A stretch of 22,544 nt of DNA from a virus: IMG/VR virus record IMGVR_UViG_3300037264_002206, positions 1-22,544 of that record, one strand, 5' to 3'. The translations under genes were made by a program, and so were the position numbers. The notes under the pieces are model-generated. The model did no database searches. It saw nothing but the letters and a program-made list of their open reading frames with translations, and was not told the DNA's origin. Below, piece by piece: positions 5,387 through 11,158 of this stretch. Numbering within the stretch: position 1 is the stretch's first letter; each line of letters opens with the position of its first letter.

Positions 5387-5692
5387 ATGACTGTCACAGC
5401 TGCTTCGTTTCTTCTGGCCAAGCCCGAGTTCGCGAAAGCGGGCACTGCGCAGATCGCGGCCGCGCTCGATTTTGCTGAACTGGAAACCAGCGACGAAGCG
5501 TTCGGTGACAGCCGCGACTACGCTGTGATTCTGAAGACGGCAGACATCCTGGCGCAATCTCCGGCAGGACGCGACGCGCGACTGATGCTCGCGCAGACCG
5601 GCGCGGCCACGACGTACGGAGTCGAGCGTCTGCGTCTGGACACAGTCGCCGCGCTCAGCGCCAGTAGGTTCGGGTCCTCGGAGAGCGAGTGA
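5387..5692 (+). CDS. Head-tail connector / adaptor protein (DUF4054-like)
   Basis: A 101-residue, mostly helical protein. The pattern KPEFAKAGTAQIAAALDFAE, then an acidic turn, then YAVILKTADILAQSPAGRDARL and a TTYGVERLRL segment follows DUF4054-type adaptors, where a helix bundle ends in SPxGxxARL and a tyrosine-containing strand. Such proteins form the ring below the portal. Its place after the capsid gene and before the gp10/gpG-like gene fits. The ATG at 5387 directly follows the terminator T run and has no visible Shine-Dalgarno sequence, which is unusual for this window. Its stop overlaps the next ATG by one base (TGATG). Confidence 0.6.
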   Translation: MTVTAASFLLAKPEFAKAGTAQIAAALDFAELETSDEAFGDSRDYAVILKTADILAQSPAGRDARLMLAQTGAATTYGVERLRLDTVAALSASRFGSSESE

Positions 5693-6135
5693 TGGCCGGT
5701 GGCGTCAAGGAAACGCGACGCGCGGCTCTGCCGATGCCCAAGCAGATCGAAATCACGATCGGTGTGCACGGCGATGACGGTGCCGCATCGCACGGCGAAG
5801 GTCTGACCGTCGCAGACGTCGCGACCTTCCACGAGTTCGGAACACCCACGGTGCCGATGCGTTCGTTCATCCGTGGGTGGGTCGACGAGAATCAGGCCTT
5901 CATTCGCGACACCCTGCAGAAGCAATTTGCGGCGGTCGCCGCCGGCAAGCGCCCTGCAGACATCGCTGCCGCGCGATGCGCGCTCGCGTTCGAAGGCGCC
6001 GTGAAGCAACGCATCAGCCGCAACATCCCCCCGCCGTTGGCTGCGAGCACCATCGCGCGCAAAGGTTCGAGCGTGGCATTGATCGACACCGGTCAGCTAC
6101 GCAACGCCGTTCGTGGTAAGGCGGAGGTGAAGTGA
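5692..6135 (+). CDS. Tail completion / neck protein (HK97 gp10- or Mu gpG-like)
   Basis: A 147-residue protein with hallmarks of the gp10/gpG neck family: a central [16 protein letters not shown] motif (the family HEFG-x-x-x-x-PARPF pattern), a long helix after it, and a C-terminal [13 protein letters not shown], equivalent to the L-x-D-T-G-x-L-x-x-S/A-I motif. These proteins join head and tail. ATG at 5692 shares one base with the preceding stop; a GTG at 5689 is an in-frame alternative. A strong Shine-Dalgarno sequence for the next gene (GGAGGTG, 6123-6129) lies inside its end. Confidence 0.75.
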
Positions 6136-6136
6136 C

Positions 6137-7315
6137 ATGGTAACGACACGCAACGGACGAGCGGCCATCGCCGCGAGCAAGGTGCAGAACAGCGCATGGC
6201 AACGCGTGCTGCAAGGCGGCCGCGGCGCGACCGGCCCGCAAGGGCCGCAAGGCATCGCGGGCACCGCAGCCGCGGCCGGCGCCACTGGTCCGCAAGGCCC
6301 CGCGGGAACAACGGGCCCCACAGGACCGACAGGCGCGGCCGGCGCCACCGGAGCGACGGGGCCCACAGGCGCGACCGGTGTCCTCGGCTCAACAGAACGT
6401 CAGCTCACGATCACGACTACTACGGATTGGACAGACTTAGATCTGGCGGCCACGTTCCCCGGCATCGTGACCGGCGATTGCATCACGATCGTCCTGCAAG
6501 CAAATCTCACGATCAATTCGATCACCCCGCCGTCGGCAAATTTTTGGTGCTTTTTCATCCTGCGAGACCAGAGCGGCGGAGACTTCTCGATCACGGTCAA
6601 AGACTCCGGCACAGGCAACGCGGATCACCGGTTCCGTACGCCGGGTCAGCCCTTCGGCGGCGCGGCGTTCGACTTCGTCATGCAGTCGGAGGAAGTGACT
6701 ACGACGTTCGTGTACACGGACACGTCCAACTCCTGGCGCATTATCTCTGGCGCGCGTGGAGCCATAGGCCCAACGGGACCGACGGGCGCAGCTGGCGCCA
6801 CCGGAGCGACGGGGCCCACAGGGGCTGCGGGCAGCTCATCGAAAGTGCAGTCGATCACGTCCAGCGTGGCGGCGACCGCTGCCACGACGAATCTGTCGTT
6901 CGGCAGCTACACCATGCAGGTCGCGGAGATGACCGCAGGTGCCGTGTTCCGATGCACAGGGCACATCACTCTCGTCAAGACCACGGACACGACCGTCGCA
7001 CCAATCTTCGAATTGCTGGTGAACGGCGTGGTCGTATGCACAGCCACTACTAGCAGCATTGGCAGCACCGCAGAGACTATCACCGGCATCGTGCATGCGT
7101 TCATGACGATCAAAACCACCGGGGGTGCAGGCACGCTCGATGCCGTGATCGGGTGGCCCATTTCTTTCCGTCAAGGCGACTCGTCCAATGACGCCGTCGC
7201 GGATGACGCGATCGACACGACGGTAACCCGCACCCTGGAGCTGCGCGTTCGGATGGCCGCCGCGGTCGCGGCCAACACGCTGACAGTGCGTCAGGGTTTT
7301 TACGAGAAGTTGTGA
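6137..7315 (+). CDS. Collagen-like phage fibre protein with two collagen stalks
   Basis: A 392-residue protein with a short basic/helical N-terminus (residues 1-27), a first collagen-like Gly-x-y stretch (about 30-84, interrupted at 43-47), a beta-rich globular domain (about 85-204), a second collagen-like stretch (205-233), and a C-terminal beta-rich domain (about 234-392) ending in [11 protein letters not shown]. The pattern stalk-knob-stalk-knob suggests a trimeric surface fibre. A strong Shine-Dalgarno sequence (GGAGGTG at 6123-6129, seven bases before ATG 6137) implies good translation. Its stop overlaps the PhoD-like gene start (GTGA), so the two are probably made together. It lies among neck genes, so it may be a neck or head fibre. 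The globular domains are not ones I can name. Confidence 0.75.
6341..6369 (+). repeat. 29-bp direct repeat, copy 1 (collagen-encoding)
   Basis: This 29-base stretch, starting GGCGCCACCGGAGCGACGGG, occurs again exactly at 6794-6822 within the same gene. Flanking bases on the left are also similar over about 25 more positions. It encodes Gly-Ala-Thr and Gly-Pro-Thr triplets. Confidence 0.85.
6794..6822 (+). repeat. 29-bp direct repeat, copy 2 (collagen-encoding)
   Basis: Exact second copy of the 29 bases at 6341-6369, in the same reading frame 453 bases (151 codons) further on. Recombination between the copies would delete one knob and one stalk without breaking the frame. Confidence 0.85.
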
Positions 7316-8532
7316 GCTGCGAGCAACTATGGCTTGGCGGACTGACTTCGACGTCAGTCCGCGCCGTCGCGAAGCTCGCGCGCGACAGCTCGTCCGTCAA
7401 GCTTGCGTGCTGGACGGCTGCCGCACCCGCCACGTTCATTCGCAGTGACGCGGTCGCCAGCGTCGGCAACATCGTCAAGTTGGAAGTCACGGGACTGGCC
7501 GCAAACACCGCGTATCAATGCCGCGTCGAGCCGGACACCGCGCCCGCGGTCGGGCTCACGGGAAGCTTCACGACGCTGCCGAGCGGGACAAATGTCAGCT
7601 TCACGACCGCACTGATTGGCGACGCGCTGGAACTGAGCAACCACGCGGTGTTCGACGCCGTGCGCACGTCGGGCGCTCGTCTGCTGTTGCACCTCGGAGA
7701 CATGCACTATCGCAACTTGGCGGTGAACGATCAAGCAAACTTCCGCGCGGCACTCGACGAGGTATTCGCGCAGTCGAAGCAAAGCCAATTGTACCGCACG
7801 ATCCCGAGCGCATACGTGTGGGACGACCACGACTACGGCCCGAACAACAGCGACGGTACGTCCGTAGGGCATGACGCGGCGTGCGGCATCTATCGTGCGC
7901 GCGTCCCGCATTACGCCCTAGTAGACGCTGGCGCGACGGCACCGGTTCACCAGACCTGGGATGTAGGACGCACCCGATTTCTGTTCACAGATCAACGCAG
8001 CGCCGCAAGCCCGCGCGCGAACACGGACAACTCCAGCAAGACGATGCTCGGCGCCGCGCAGAAGACGTGGTTCAAAGACCAGATTCAAAACTCCTCAGGC
8101 AAGCTACTCGTCTGGGTGTGTCCGCGGCACTTCACGGGCAACGCCACAGCGGGCGCGGACCATTGGGGCGGCTTCACGACAGAGCGCACGGAGCTGGTCG
8201 ACCACATCAAAACGCACGCGCACGGGCGTGTGATCGTACTGAGCGCGGACATGCACGCGCTGCGCATTGGCGATGACCGCGACTTCGCCACCGGTGGCGG
8301 CGAGGCGCTCAAGGTGTTCAACGTTGGTGGACCGCTCGACCACGGCACGGTGGACACCGGCGGGTACGGCGGGGTAACATCGTCGGGCGCGACGGCATTC
8401 AGCGCCGTCAATGGGCAGTTCGCCACGATGCAGATCACAGATACAGGTGCCGCGACGATCGACGTCGTGTGGCGCGGCTTCAACACCGCAGGGACGCAGA
8501 TCATGACGCACTCGTTCGCGGTGACCGTGTGA
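7312..8532 (+). CDS. PhoD-like metallophosphoesterase (alkaline phosphatase D family)
   Basis: A 406-residue protein with a PhoD layout. An N-terminal FN3-like beta domain (residues 1-95; [16 protein letters not shown] and the strand [15 protein letters not shown]) precedes a calcineurin-like phosphoesterase core. Metal-site motifs are visible: LLHLGDMHY (Asp130, His132, Tyr133), [13 protein letters not shown] (Asp171, Asp172, His173, Asp174, Asn178), an FLFTDQRS strand and VLSADMHAL (Asp313, His315). Family members hydrolyse phosphomonoesters or phosphodiesters, including teichoic acid or phospholipid substrates in some bacteria. No signal peptide is visible, so export via the host secretion system is unlikely and carriage on the virion is plausible. 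The GTG start overlaps the stop of the collagen fibre gene. Whether all catalytic ligands are kept cannot be settled by eye; the usual first metal motif (an Asp or Cys around residue 100) is degenerate here. Confidence 0.85.
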
Positions 8533-9107
8533 CCGACTTCGCAAGTTTTCGCGCCGCCGTGGCGGCCGCCGTCCAGGCAGCCATGCCGTCCAGCGTGAGC
8601 GCGCCAGCGAACAACGACGGGCCGGCTGTTTTCTGGGTAGACGGCGCCATGCCATACGGCAAGCATCTCATTCAATTGTCCGAAGTGTCCGTCGTATACG
8701 AGATGGATCGCGACACGGCACTGTACACAGGCGGTGCACAGACGCTCTCGAGCTTCGTCGCCATCACGGTGCAGGTGCAGTGTGAATCGCAGCACGACGA
8801 CCCGACGCTGAACGCGCAATGGTTGGTCGAGCAAATCCGTCTAGGCCTCCGCAAGGTGTCCGTCGCGGACGCACTCAAGACGGCCAACGTCATCATCGCC
8901 AACTTCCCGAGCGCGACCGTGCGGCGATCGTACCCCACCGACGGCCGCATCATCAGCGCCGCCAGTTTCGACGTCGCGTTCCGCACAGAATTCACGTTCG
9001 ACGCCACGGGCGAAGACGCTGGCCTCATTGAACGCGTTGTGGCAGAGGGCGAAGGCGGCCTTGCTGGCGCAGACGTCGACGTAACAGACCCGGACCCGGA
9101 GCCCTGA
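8529..9107 (+). CDS. Neck / tail terminator protein
   Basis: A 192-residue protein. GTG at 8529 is chosen because it overlaps the previous stop in a GTGA arrangement; the open frame extends upstream to 8469 but that part lies inside the PhoD-like gene. The core reads as the tail-terminator (neck terminator gp12-like) fold: an N-terminal helix FASFRAAVAAAVQAAM, a strand with a Trp and a GKHLIQLSEV segment, FVAITVQVQCES, a long helix LNAQWLVEQIRLGL, a GRIISAASFDVAFRTEFT strand pair and an acidic tail. Such proteins cap the tail tube and join it to the neck. Its position between neck and sheath genes supports this, despite the appendage genes on each side. Confidence 0.6.
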   Translation: MTDFASFRAAVAAAVQAAMPSSVSAPANNDGPAVFWVDGAMPYGKHLIQLSEVSVVYEMDRDTALYTGGAQTLSSFVAITVQVQCESQHDDPTLNAQWLVEQIRLGLRKVSVADALKTANVIIANFPSATVRRSYPTDGRIISAASFDVAFRTEFTFDATGEDAGLIERVVAEGEGGLAGADVDVTDPDPEP

Positions 9108-10030
9108 TGCAATCCTTCCGCATTCCAGACCTGAAGCAGACACAGCTCGCGCGCATTCGTCAAGACGCCGCACGTGGCGCGTTGGCGCGGTACGACGCGG
9201 CGTTCGCCGAGTCCTTCGCCGTTGCTGCATCACTGGCTTCGTCCAGTTCAGGTGGCGGCTGGGATCCGACGATGTGTCCGGAGGTGGCCGCAGGGTATTG
9301 GTGGAGCGCAGACCGCACGACGGGTTTCGGCACCACAGACTTTCGCGTCGTCGAGGGCAACGGGCGTTCGACCTTCGACCTGGTGCAGGCCACGGTCGCC
9401 AGGCAGCCCACGGTGTTGACCGAGTTTGGAGGGTCGCAGTTCCGGATGCGCGATGCCGGCGACGCGAACCCCTGCTTACTCGCTACGGCCGCCACGGTCC
9501 AAGCTGGCTGGACAGGGCCGACATACATGGGGATGTGGGTCCGCGTGCCGGACGCAAGCGGAGACGTCACGTCGGCCTGCACGCTGCTGATGCACAACCT
9601 GACCACGGGCAACCAGCGCCGAATCCACTGCAATTACTTCACTGGAGTTCCGGACACGCTCAACAGTACGGTGGTGGAGGCGGGCGTCGCGCAGGCAGGC
9701 AATACGGCGAAGAGCACCGGCACAGCCAACGCATCATGGCATTGGGTGGAGGTCGCTTTCGATTTGGCGCTACAGCTCGGCGGGTCTTCTCCGGGCGATG
9801 TAACCAAGCACTTCTCAGATTTCACGTTGCAGGCGCTGACGACGGTCCCGACCACTGCGCCGGCGGTGATCTTCGACGCGCTCGCCAAGATATTCGTGGC
9901 GACGCAGAATGGTGCAGCCAACACGGACACCACTGATTGGGCCGCCTGCTACTACGCAAACGGCATCCCCTCACTGGCTGACCGCGTCATGCTCGCGCGC
10001 TGGAATGCGCCGACCACGCCGCCCCGTTGA
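9107..10030 (+). CDS. LamG/concanavalin-like appendage protein
   Basis: A 307-residue protein. Residues 1-50 are a helical, Ala-rich N-terminus (ARIRQDAARGALARYDAAFA) that may anchor it or trimerise. From about residue 60 the sequence is strand-rich with features of a jelly-roll carbohydrate-binding fold: FDLVQATVARQPTVL, GPTYMGMWVRVP, WHWVEVAFDL and a C-terminal PSLADRVMLARW. This pattern (a flagged DATNGRQPT-like strand followed by a M-x-x-W strand) is common in LamG-like phage proteins. Its start shares one base with the previous stop (TGATG). It is probably a surface or receptor-binding protein made with the tailspike that follows; partner and ligand are unknown. Confidence 0.55.
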   Translation: MQSFRIPDLKQTQLARIRQDAARGALARYDAAFAESFAVAASLASSSSGGGWDPTMCPEVAAGYWWSADRTTGFGTTDFRVVEGNGRSTFDLVQATVARQPTVLTEFGGSQFRMRDAGDANPCLLATAATVQAGWTGPTYMGMWVRVPDASGDVTSACTLLMHNLTTGNQRRIHCNYFTGVPDTLNSTVVEAGVAQAGNTAKSTGTANASWHWVEVAFDLALQLGGSSPGDVTKHFSDFTLQALTTVPTTAPAVIFDALAKIFVATQNGAANTDTTDWAACYYANGIPSLADRVMLARWNAPTTPPR

Positions 10031-10057: not shown

Positions 10058-11158
10058 GTGCCGAGGTTCGATGTAGGCGCCACAGATCCCACGGGGGCCG
10101 CAGACACGACGGCGGCGCTTCAGGCGGTCATCCAGCCCGCCGACCGCCAGCCGGCGAGCGCGTGGGGGGACACACGGCACACCGTCGAGCTACAGCCCGG
10201 GGCGCGCTTTCGCATCTCTAGCCAGCTGCAGATCACGCGGCGCGTGCACATCCGCGGCAACGGCGCAGAGATCTTCTGCGAGAGCGCATTGTGTGACATG
10301 CTGCGGATCCAGGCGAGCGCGCCGGGAACGTTGATTGAAGGCCTGACGTTCCGCTATCGCGTTGCGTCCGTCCAGTTGCAGGACAACGACCGCACAGCAG
10401 TCAAGGTCGAGGCCTTCAATACCCAGTTGCGTGACGTCGAGATCGACGGAGCGGGCTACGGTCTCGTGCTGGACGCAAGCGCGCCAGGGACCAATTTGAA
10501 TTGGTTCTTTGCGGAGAACGTGAGCATCACCAACTCGCGTCGCCGAGCTCACTACGCCAAGGGCCTGGACGCCAGCGGCGGTGTGTTCGTGGGCGTGCGG
10601 ACATTGACCACTGAAAATCACTTCGACAGTGCCAACCACTTCGGCCCCGCAATCGCTGCGGAGGAGTCGTCAAACAACGGCAACACCTACGTCGGGTGTC
10701 TCTGGGAGGTCAGCAACGTGGGCCTGCGCGTCGCCAATACTAGCGGCCCCAACCCGTCTGTCTTCGTGGGCTGCTACGTTGAAGGCGCCGACCCCATCGA
10801 ATGGGTGGGTAACTTCGCGACCAAGACAACAGTCATCGGCGGAATCCTCGGGCGGCGTGAGGACGTGAAGGGCGATCGCGTGGGCGCGCAGATGTCGAGG
10901 CTCACGTTCCGGGCCGTGAGCAATGCCGGCATCGCCTACACCGTGGCGATCCCCGGCGCTGACCAAGACTCCGCCATGTGGTTCGCGGGCAATGATGCAC
11001 CGCTCGAGACGTGGCTGCTCAAGCGCGCCACCAGCGGCACCACGCACGATTGGAACTGGCAGAACTACCTGACGCAGGGTCGCAACACCATCAGCTTCCA
11101 CGTCAAAGACCTTGGGGGCGGAAGCTACGAAGTCGCGGGTATCGTGGCGAGCAGCTGA
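10058..11158 (+). CDS. Right-handed beta-helix tailspike-like protein
   Basis: A 366-residue protein that opens directly with the pectate-lyase-superfamily start motif (FDVGATDPTGAADTTAALQAVI), followed by repeating short strands and turns: VHIRGNGAEIFCES, LIEGLTFRYR, TQLRDVEIDGAGYGLVLDA, FAENVSITNS, NTYVGCLWEVSNVGLRVANT and TVIGGILGRRED. This periodicity is that of a single-stranded right-handed beta helix, as in phage tailspikes. There is no obvious head- or baseplate-binding N-domain, so it may dock on a partner such as the preceding LamG-like protein. The GTG start at 10058 follows a GGAG about twelve bases upstream. Enzymatic activity on surface polysaccharide is possible but no catalytic residues can be assigned. 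Confidence 0.7.
   Translation: MPRFDVGATDPTGAADTTAALQAVIQPADRQPASAWGDTRHTVELQPGARFRISSQLQITRRVHIRGNGAEIFCESALCDMLRIQASAPGTLIEGLTFRYRVASVQLQDNDRTAVKVEAFNTQLRDVEIDGAGYGLVLDASAPGTNLNWFFAENVSITNSRRRAHYAKGLDASGGVFVGVRTLTTENHFDSANHFGPAIAAEESSNNGNTYVGCLWEVSNVGLRVANTSGPNPSVFVGCYVEGADPIEWVGNFATKTTVIGGILGRREDVKGDRVGAQMSRLTFRAVSNAGIAYTVAIPGADQDSAMWFAGNDAPLETWLLKRATSGTTHDWNWQNYLTQGRNTISFHVKDLGGGSYEVAGIVASS

Follow-up and report, generated by a model that had tools for sequence, protein, structure and literature searches.

A PhoD-like metallophosphoesterase encoded in a variable fiber slot between phage neck genes is a probable virion component

The DNA analyzed in this study (hereafter called the window) is a 22.5-kb virus contig of metagenomic origin. 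The genes surrounding its PhoD-like gene are those of a contractile-tailed phage, including genes for a MuF head protein, a DUF2213 protease, a cement protein, the major capsid protein, Neck1, sheath, and tube. Further structural genes encode the tape measure, Dit, hub, and wedge proteins. The genes between positions 5689 and 11158 that are described below are all encoded on the plus strand.

A tail completion (Neck1) gene at 5689..6135 (phrog_222, E=1e-32) forms the upstream border of a fiber slot, and a neck or tail terminator gene at 8529..9107 forms its downstream border. The latter assignment is based on matches to PF23961 (0.0016) and NF047498 (3.8e-5), both of which are below the curated cut-offs. 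Two genes occupy the slot. One (6137..7315) encodes a collagen-like fiber protein of 392 amino acids with two Gly-X-Y stretches and a C-terminal domain, which matches Pfam Collagen (9.1e-12) and tail-fiber PHROGs. The other (7312..8532) encodes a PhoD-like metallophosphoesterase of 406 amino acids, with a GTG start codon and a TGA stop codon ending at 8532. The PhoD gene shares four nucleotides (GTGA) with the fiber gene at 7312-7315 and four (GTGA) with the terminator gene at 8529-8532. An initial annotation made from the sequence had proposed translational coupling between the PhoD and collagen-like genes, and the overlap bears this out; the terminator side is arranged in the same way. This annotation had also described the flanking genes as neck and LamG-like. 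The neck assignments hold, with a strong match for Neck1 and a weak one for the terminator, but the LamG assignment was not confirmed.

A second variable slot is located between the terminator and sheath genes. Its first accessory gene (9107..10030) has no match to LamG or any other family, and the single-sequence model of its product, with a pLDDT of 33.5, is not usable. The other accessory gene (10058..11158) exhibits weak similarity to pectate-lyase-like beta-helix proteins (PF12708, 1.4e-4, below the cut-off), and its product is a possible tailspike-like depolymerase. The sub-threshold LamG match in the window lies instead in a partial gene at 1-828, upstream of the MuF gene, which also includes a Gly-X-Y stretch; this product might be a further collagen-type fiber or a decoration protein. 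Searches using hhalign and BLASTP for LamG homology among the C-terminal domain of cyanophage PhoD proteins, the fiber of contig L046 (see below), and the window genes at 1-828 and 9107-10030 gave no significant result.

Viral contigs were searched with the major capsid and sheath proteins, which yielded two relatives, the close L139 and the more distant L140. The capsid protein of the phage contig L139 is 62% identical to that of the window, and the two contigs have the same order of genes for the head, neck, sheath, tube, tape measure, and Dit. The Neck1 protein is 55% identical to the product of the same-place gene in L139, and the terminator protein is 51% identical to its syntenic counterpart. 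The interval between these two genes in L139 has a small gene besides the one for a collagen-like fiber, and PhoD is absent from it. The L139 interval between the terminator and sheath genes, in turn, lacks counterparts of both accessory genes of the window. Because L139 has a collagen fiber without PhoD in the same slot, we conclude that PhoD is an optional part of a variable fiber slot between neck genes. A collagen-like fiber gene also overlaps a PhoD gene, by one nucleotide, in the unrelated contig L046. Searches of viral contigs for relatives of the window terminator and collagen genes returned none. Likewise, a collection of cultured phages contained no match to the major capsid protein, and the sheath proteins among the matches listed were only 23-26% identical.

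The product of the PhoD gene matches the Pfam PhoD family (PF09423) over residues 138-385 with E=7.3e-17 and 61.9 bits, well above the curated cut-off of 27, and it matches the "phosphodiesterase" family PHROG_24476 (phrog_24476) with E=2.7e-73. It scores 34.6 bits against NF058638, the equivalog for B. subtilis-type PhoD, for which the cut-off is 1000. A profile search with both PhoD and PhoD_N, as the initial annotation had suggested, therefore succeeded for PhoD, but the Pfam PhoD_N profile finds no match in this protein. Structure prediction with AlphaFold, using 18 aligned sequences as input, gave a model with a mean pLDDT of 83.9 and a pTM of 0.88. The top match to this model among PDB entries, as determined by Foldseek, is B. 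subtilis PhoD (2YEQ, E=4.8e-25, TM 0.77 on the query). Purple acid phosphatases rank next, and isolated FN3 domains appear lower in the list. The presence of these isolated domains confirms the FN3-like N-terminal domain that had been suspected from the sequence. This domain covers approximately residues 1-88 (7312..7575), and its strand A corresponds to residues 3-9 (7318-7338) in a region, residues 1-20, where the pLDDT is greater than 90. The catalytic domain covers approximately residues 89-406 (7576..8529).

The protein has neither a signal peptide nor a hydrophobic segment, in agreement with the initial annotation, and thus it lacks the Tat export route of the known PhoD exemplar. The absence of a Tat signal speaks to the location of the protein and says nothing about its family. 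Additional differences from B. subtilis PhoD are that the window protein is shorter and that its gene resides in a phage structural operon.

The metal ligands of B. subtilis PhoD are largely retained, as judged by HMM alignment to 2YEQ. The GDMHY motif supplies Asp130 (D207) and Tyr133 (Y210) at 7699..7710, the WDDHDYGPN motif supplies Asp171 (D265), Asp172 (D266), and Asn178 (N272) at 7822..7845, and the ADMH motif supplies Asp313 (D436) and His315 (H438) at 8248..8256. The GDMHY, WDDHD, and SADMH motifs had been recognized previously, and an alignment with 17 relatives shows no variation at their key residues. Asp104 (7621..7623) aligns to Cys180, which is the Fe3+ ligand in B. subtilis PhoD (PMC4223295). 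The Fe3+ site, which consists of Cys or Asp, Asp, Tyr, and His, is therefore represented by D104, D130, Y133, and H315. All positions that form the Ca2+ sites (D207, D265, D266, N271, N272, and D436) are kept except N271, where the window protein has Pro177. The B. subtilis mutants C180A, D265A, N271A, N272A, and D436A all lose activity (PMC4223295). The N271 column is variable across the subfamily and is occupied by P, G, or A in most members, including cellular ones. The loop at this column may be shifted by one residue. N178/N179 may make up the CaB site, or the site may be weaker.

The usual first motif had been described as degenerate in appearance, with a possible change of specificity. 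This view is not borne out, because Asp104 aligns to the Cys180 position and a natural PhoD subfamily uses Asp in place of Cys (PMC4223295). Among 125 sequences, the Fe-ligand column is 24 Cys and 24 Asp in phages, so half of the phage sequences are of the Asp type, versus 74 Cys and 2 Asp in cellular genomes; these counts are uncorrected for relatedness, apart from the mapping of about eight changes of state on the tree. Together, the counts and the tree indicate that the swap has occurred repeatedly and mostly within phages. Purple acid phosphatases share the superfamily fold and also use Asp as an Fe ligand, but we rejected this family assignment because their His2-Asp-Asn set for the second metal is absent and the PhoD-type WDDHD residues Asp171/Asp172 plus Asn are present instead. 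The window protein belongs to the PhoD family and is predicted to be a phosphodiesterase of the Fe3+/Ca2+ type, and we infer both this activity and its substrate.

Homologs of the window PhoD are encoded by Nostoc phage YongM, Anabaena phage Elbi, and Dolichospermum phage Dfl-JY23, with 37-43% identity over the PhoD part. For Anabaena phage A-1(L), gp82, gp81, and gp80 have been reported to form five neck fibers; the base, made of gp82, was imaged by cryo-EM, the complete fiber was reconstituted, and mass spectrometry added further evidence (PMC10966104). By BLASTP, the gene order in YongM and Elbi is gp82 (72%), a second and extended gp81 (46-47%), PhoD, gp81 (86-93%), gp80 (44-61%), and gp79, and the order in Dfl-JY23 is gp82 with a C-terminal extension, PhoD, and gp81. 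Comparison of these orders with A-1(L) places PhoD within the neck-fiber operon. The A-1(L) operon itself has no PhoD gene.

The YongM homolog has been detected in phage material by mass spectrometry, where it ranked seventh by score among 32 proteins with 35% coverage, beside capsid, sheath, and tube proteins (PMC8875764). Its operon neighbors were also detected, and DNA polymerase and thymidylate kinase had a score of 19 (PMC8875764). The sample is described as "amplified and concentrated" with no gradient step stated, and the authors filed PhoD under DNA anabolism (PMC8875764). In addition, a viable YongM mutant obtained with UV has lost a single base, which shifts the PhoD reading frame at residue 514 of 653, past the catalytic domain (PMC11356776). 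Its viability is consistent with an accessory role for PhoD.

The window PhoD shares its tree neighborhood and its association with a fiber operon with these cyanophage proteins, which are annotated as "alkaline phosphatase D." However, the cyanophage proteins have a split FN3 domain (see below), an extra C-terminal domain of about 260 amino acids, and a Cys ligand, and their fiber is of the A-1(L) type whereas that of the window is collagen. A BLASTP comparison of window genes with A-1(L) gp79-gp82 at 1e-3 gave no match. What the two systems would share is a fiber attached at the neck and encoded by a small operon; in the sister phages of A-1(L), the homologous operon holds PhoD.

Phage PhoD proteins are found in different surroundings as well. 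Actinophage-like contigs encode the PhoD domain in one polypeptide with domains that match minor tail or tail protein families (phrog_1885, 1887, 5939), and in Thermobifida phage P1312 it is placed after the tape-measure gene and a tail gene. The P1312 gp22 type that represents PHROG_24476 resembles the window protein in its PhoD domain, its Asp ligand, and its location in a structural gene cluster, but it is about 1100 amino acids long with a large C-terminal part. Homologs in Streptomyces BE and Microbacterium A3Wally phages are found away from structural genes, among non-structural ones. By a simple hydropathy rule rather than a trained predictor, a signal or membrane segment is present in 59 of 78 cellular PhoD proteins versus 1 of 57 from phages. 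The split between phage and cellular proteins requires 6 changes on the PhoD tree, compared to a mean of 39 when shuffled, with weak branches joining the phage groups. The closest relative of the window PhoD is found in contig L162 (43% identity, support 100/98). Recent capture of a host gene is therefore disfavored, because the window protein groups with phages and its closest match is a phage protein at only 43% identity, although the branches between phage groups are weak.

Eight phage PhoD proteins (L016, L018, L022, L023, L028, L158, L160, and L162) start past strand A of the FN3 domain. In seven of these cases, a peptide resembling strand A forms the C-terminus of the product of the adjacent upstream gene. 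These C-terminal peptides are QTQSLWIG, DVENLWVGHVE, NVVSIWSIAY, QTESIWISVD, ALASMWVGALS, EVISIWTSTY (preceded by a second copy), and VILNMWTATF (the third of three copies). The eighth case, L158, has a weaker peptide, GMVSIYKLNN. Elbi carries one strand-A-like copy, YongM two, and Dfl-JY23 three, and gp81 of A-1(L), which has no PhoD beside it, lacks a strand-A-like tail. In L162, the upstream protein is a paralog of the downstream one (shuffle z of 19) with the strand appended at its end, and the same layout is observed in YongM. No such paralogy was found among the window fiber genes.

To quantify this pattern, the regular expression [LIVM]W[^P][GSTAI] was applied to the last 20 residues of upstream proteins. 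It matches 7 of 8 proteins upstream of split PhoDs and 1 of 27 upstream of unsplit ones, against 1.6% for background ORFs, and it was written with all eight split cases already seen. The contrast between split and unsplit cases (Fisher p = 9e-6) ignores relatedness, and all but one of the eight split proteins belong to two or three linked groups; on the tree, the split state changes about four times. The pattern was originally noticed with five cases, and of the three from a later scan (L158, L160, and L162), two fit. A strand-A profile built before the scan scores L162 at 12.6, but L160, L022, and L023 at -1.0, 0.4, and 3.0, respectively, and the strand-A-like peptides in these last three were recognized by eye.

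Read most simply, these sequences suggest that the split enzymes receive strand A from the upstream subunit and are thereby held by it. Alternatively, the genes might have undergone fission with passive reassembly of the products; either explanation implies physical association. In the window, strand A is part of PhoD itself, and the fiber protein encoded upstream has no donor strand. Because the window PhoD is unsplit, its attachment is not explained by strand donation.

We favor the interpretation that the window PhoD is a virion-mounted enzyme on or near the collagen-like neck fiber, and we estimate the probability of this reading at roughly 70%. The initial annotation had likewise preferred an enzyme on the virion to a metabolic phosphatase, and support for this idea comes through homologs, namely the mass spectrometry of YongM (PMC8875764), the neck-fiber operon (PMC10966104), the fusions with minor tail proteins, and the absence of signals from phage members. 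We infer incorporation into the virion and docking on the fiber from these relatives. Because the collagen-like fiber is not homologous to A-1(L) gp80-82, neck attachment in particular is proposed by analogy and synteny.

According to this model, PhoD would be synthesized, folded, and loaded with its metals in the cytoplasm. It would be co-translated with the fiber and neck proteins and would enter the particle without secretion, as an optional attachment of the collagen-like fiber at the neck region. On an arriving particle, the enzyme would cut phosphodiester bonds of the host envelope or extracellular matrix and thus ease access to the receptor. Candidate targets include phosphorylated polysaccharide, phospholipid, and extracellular DNA.

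Three other explanations were weighed against this model. The protein could be on the virion yet catalytically irrelevant, with its fold serving as a binding or decoration domain. Changed ligand motifs in some phage relatives (YSDND in Streptomyces and WDNHD in Microbacterium phages) fit this possibility, as does the recovery of the YongM mutant, whose frameshift at 514/653 is outside the catalytic domain (PMC11356776). However, the ligands are invariant in the window protein and in most relatives despite low overall identity, which argues for retained catalysis and makes an inert domain unlikely. We consider it similarly improbable that the enzyme is located at the tail tip or baseplate instead of the neck. 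Such a position would agree with the actinophage relatives that are fused to minor tail proteins or placed after the tape-measure gene, and with L162, where PhoD follows a tape-measure-like gene. The window gene, in contrast, occupies the interval bounded by the Neck1 and terminator genes, a long way from those for the baseplate, and the cyanophage homologs are encoded in a neck-fiber operon.

Far less probable is that PhoD is an intracellular or released metabolic enzyme, active in phosphate scavenging or nucleotide metabolism, that resides in a structural operon by chance. The annotation of relatives as alkaline phosphatase D, the DNA anabolism grouping chosen for YongM (PMC8875764), and the non-structural neighbors of the Streptomyces BE phage gene are in line with such a function. 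Nevertheless, the YongM protein ranks by the capsid and tail proteins and not with the DNA polymerase and thymidylate kinase (PMC8875764), and the recurrent coupling to fibers, the tail fusions, and the donor-strand pattern all speak against a chance location.

Returning to the preferred reading of a virion-mounted enzyme, a broader and more tentative proposal, which we hold at somewhat less than even odds, extends it to the clade. Judging from the sequence patterns, these phages may dock a plug-in phosphodiesterase on their fibers by donor-strand complementation, in which the C-terminus of a fiber subunit serves as FN3 strand A and the presence of one to three strands per subunit sets the number of enzymes. 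The window phage would belong to this clade as an unsplit case, with the same enzyme borne on a collagen neck fiber, and the enzyme would clear phosphodiester-containing surface material for the arriving particle. The PhoD family, virion enzymes as a concept, and the neck-fiber operon are already known. For their combination, and for the apparent strand-donor docking, no precedent turned up in the literature searched. Our search for phage PhoD together with virions or tail fibers, or for donor-strand docking, returned nothing relevant from a body of literature that covered a minority of subscription papers.

Virion enzymes known to attack host surfaces are mostly glycan depolymerases and peptidoglycan hydrolases, along with some glycerophosphodiesterases. 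Those glycerophosphodiesterases that are present in the tails of enterococcal phages have been surveyed previously (PMC10194240). If true, the presence of a PhoD-type enzyme on neck fibers would bring phosphodiester chemistry into this set, in an unusual location, and many phage proteins with phosphate-metabolism annotations such as "alkaline phosphatase D" or "purple acid phosphatase" would become likely virion parts. The split FN3 pattern provides a docking mechanism that is directly testable and possibly a modular way for phages to attach enzymes to fibers.

Two additional observations concern individual relatives. The bacterial contigs L119 and L125 encode PhoD proteins that lack a signal peptide and group with phage sequences, and these contigs probably represent prophages. 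Furthermore, the Elbi genome (L028) encodes at 5995-7950 a PhoD protein that is 76% identical to YongM ORF12, which contradicts the claim that ORF12 homologs are missing from the compared phages, Elbi among them (PMC11356776).
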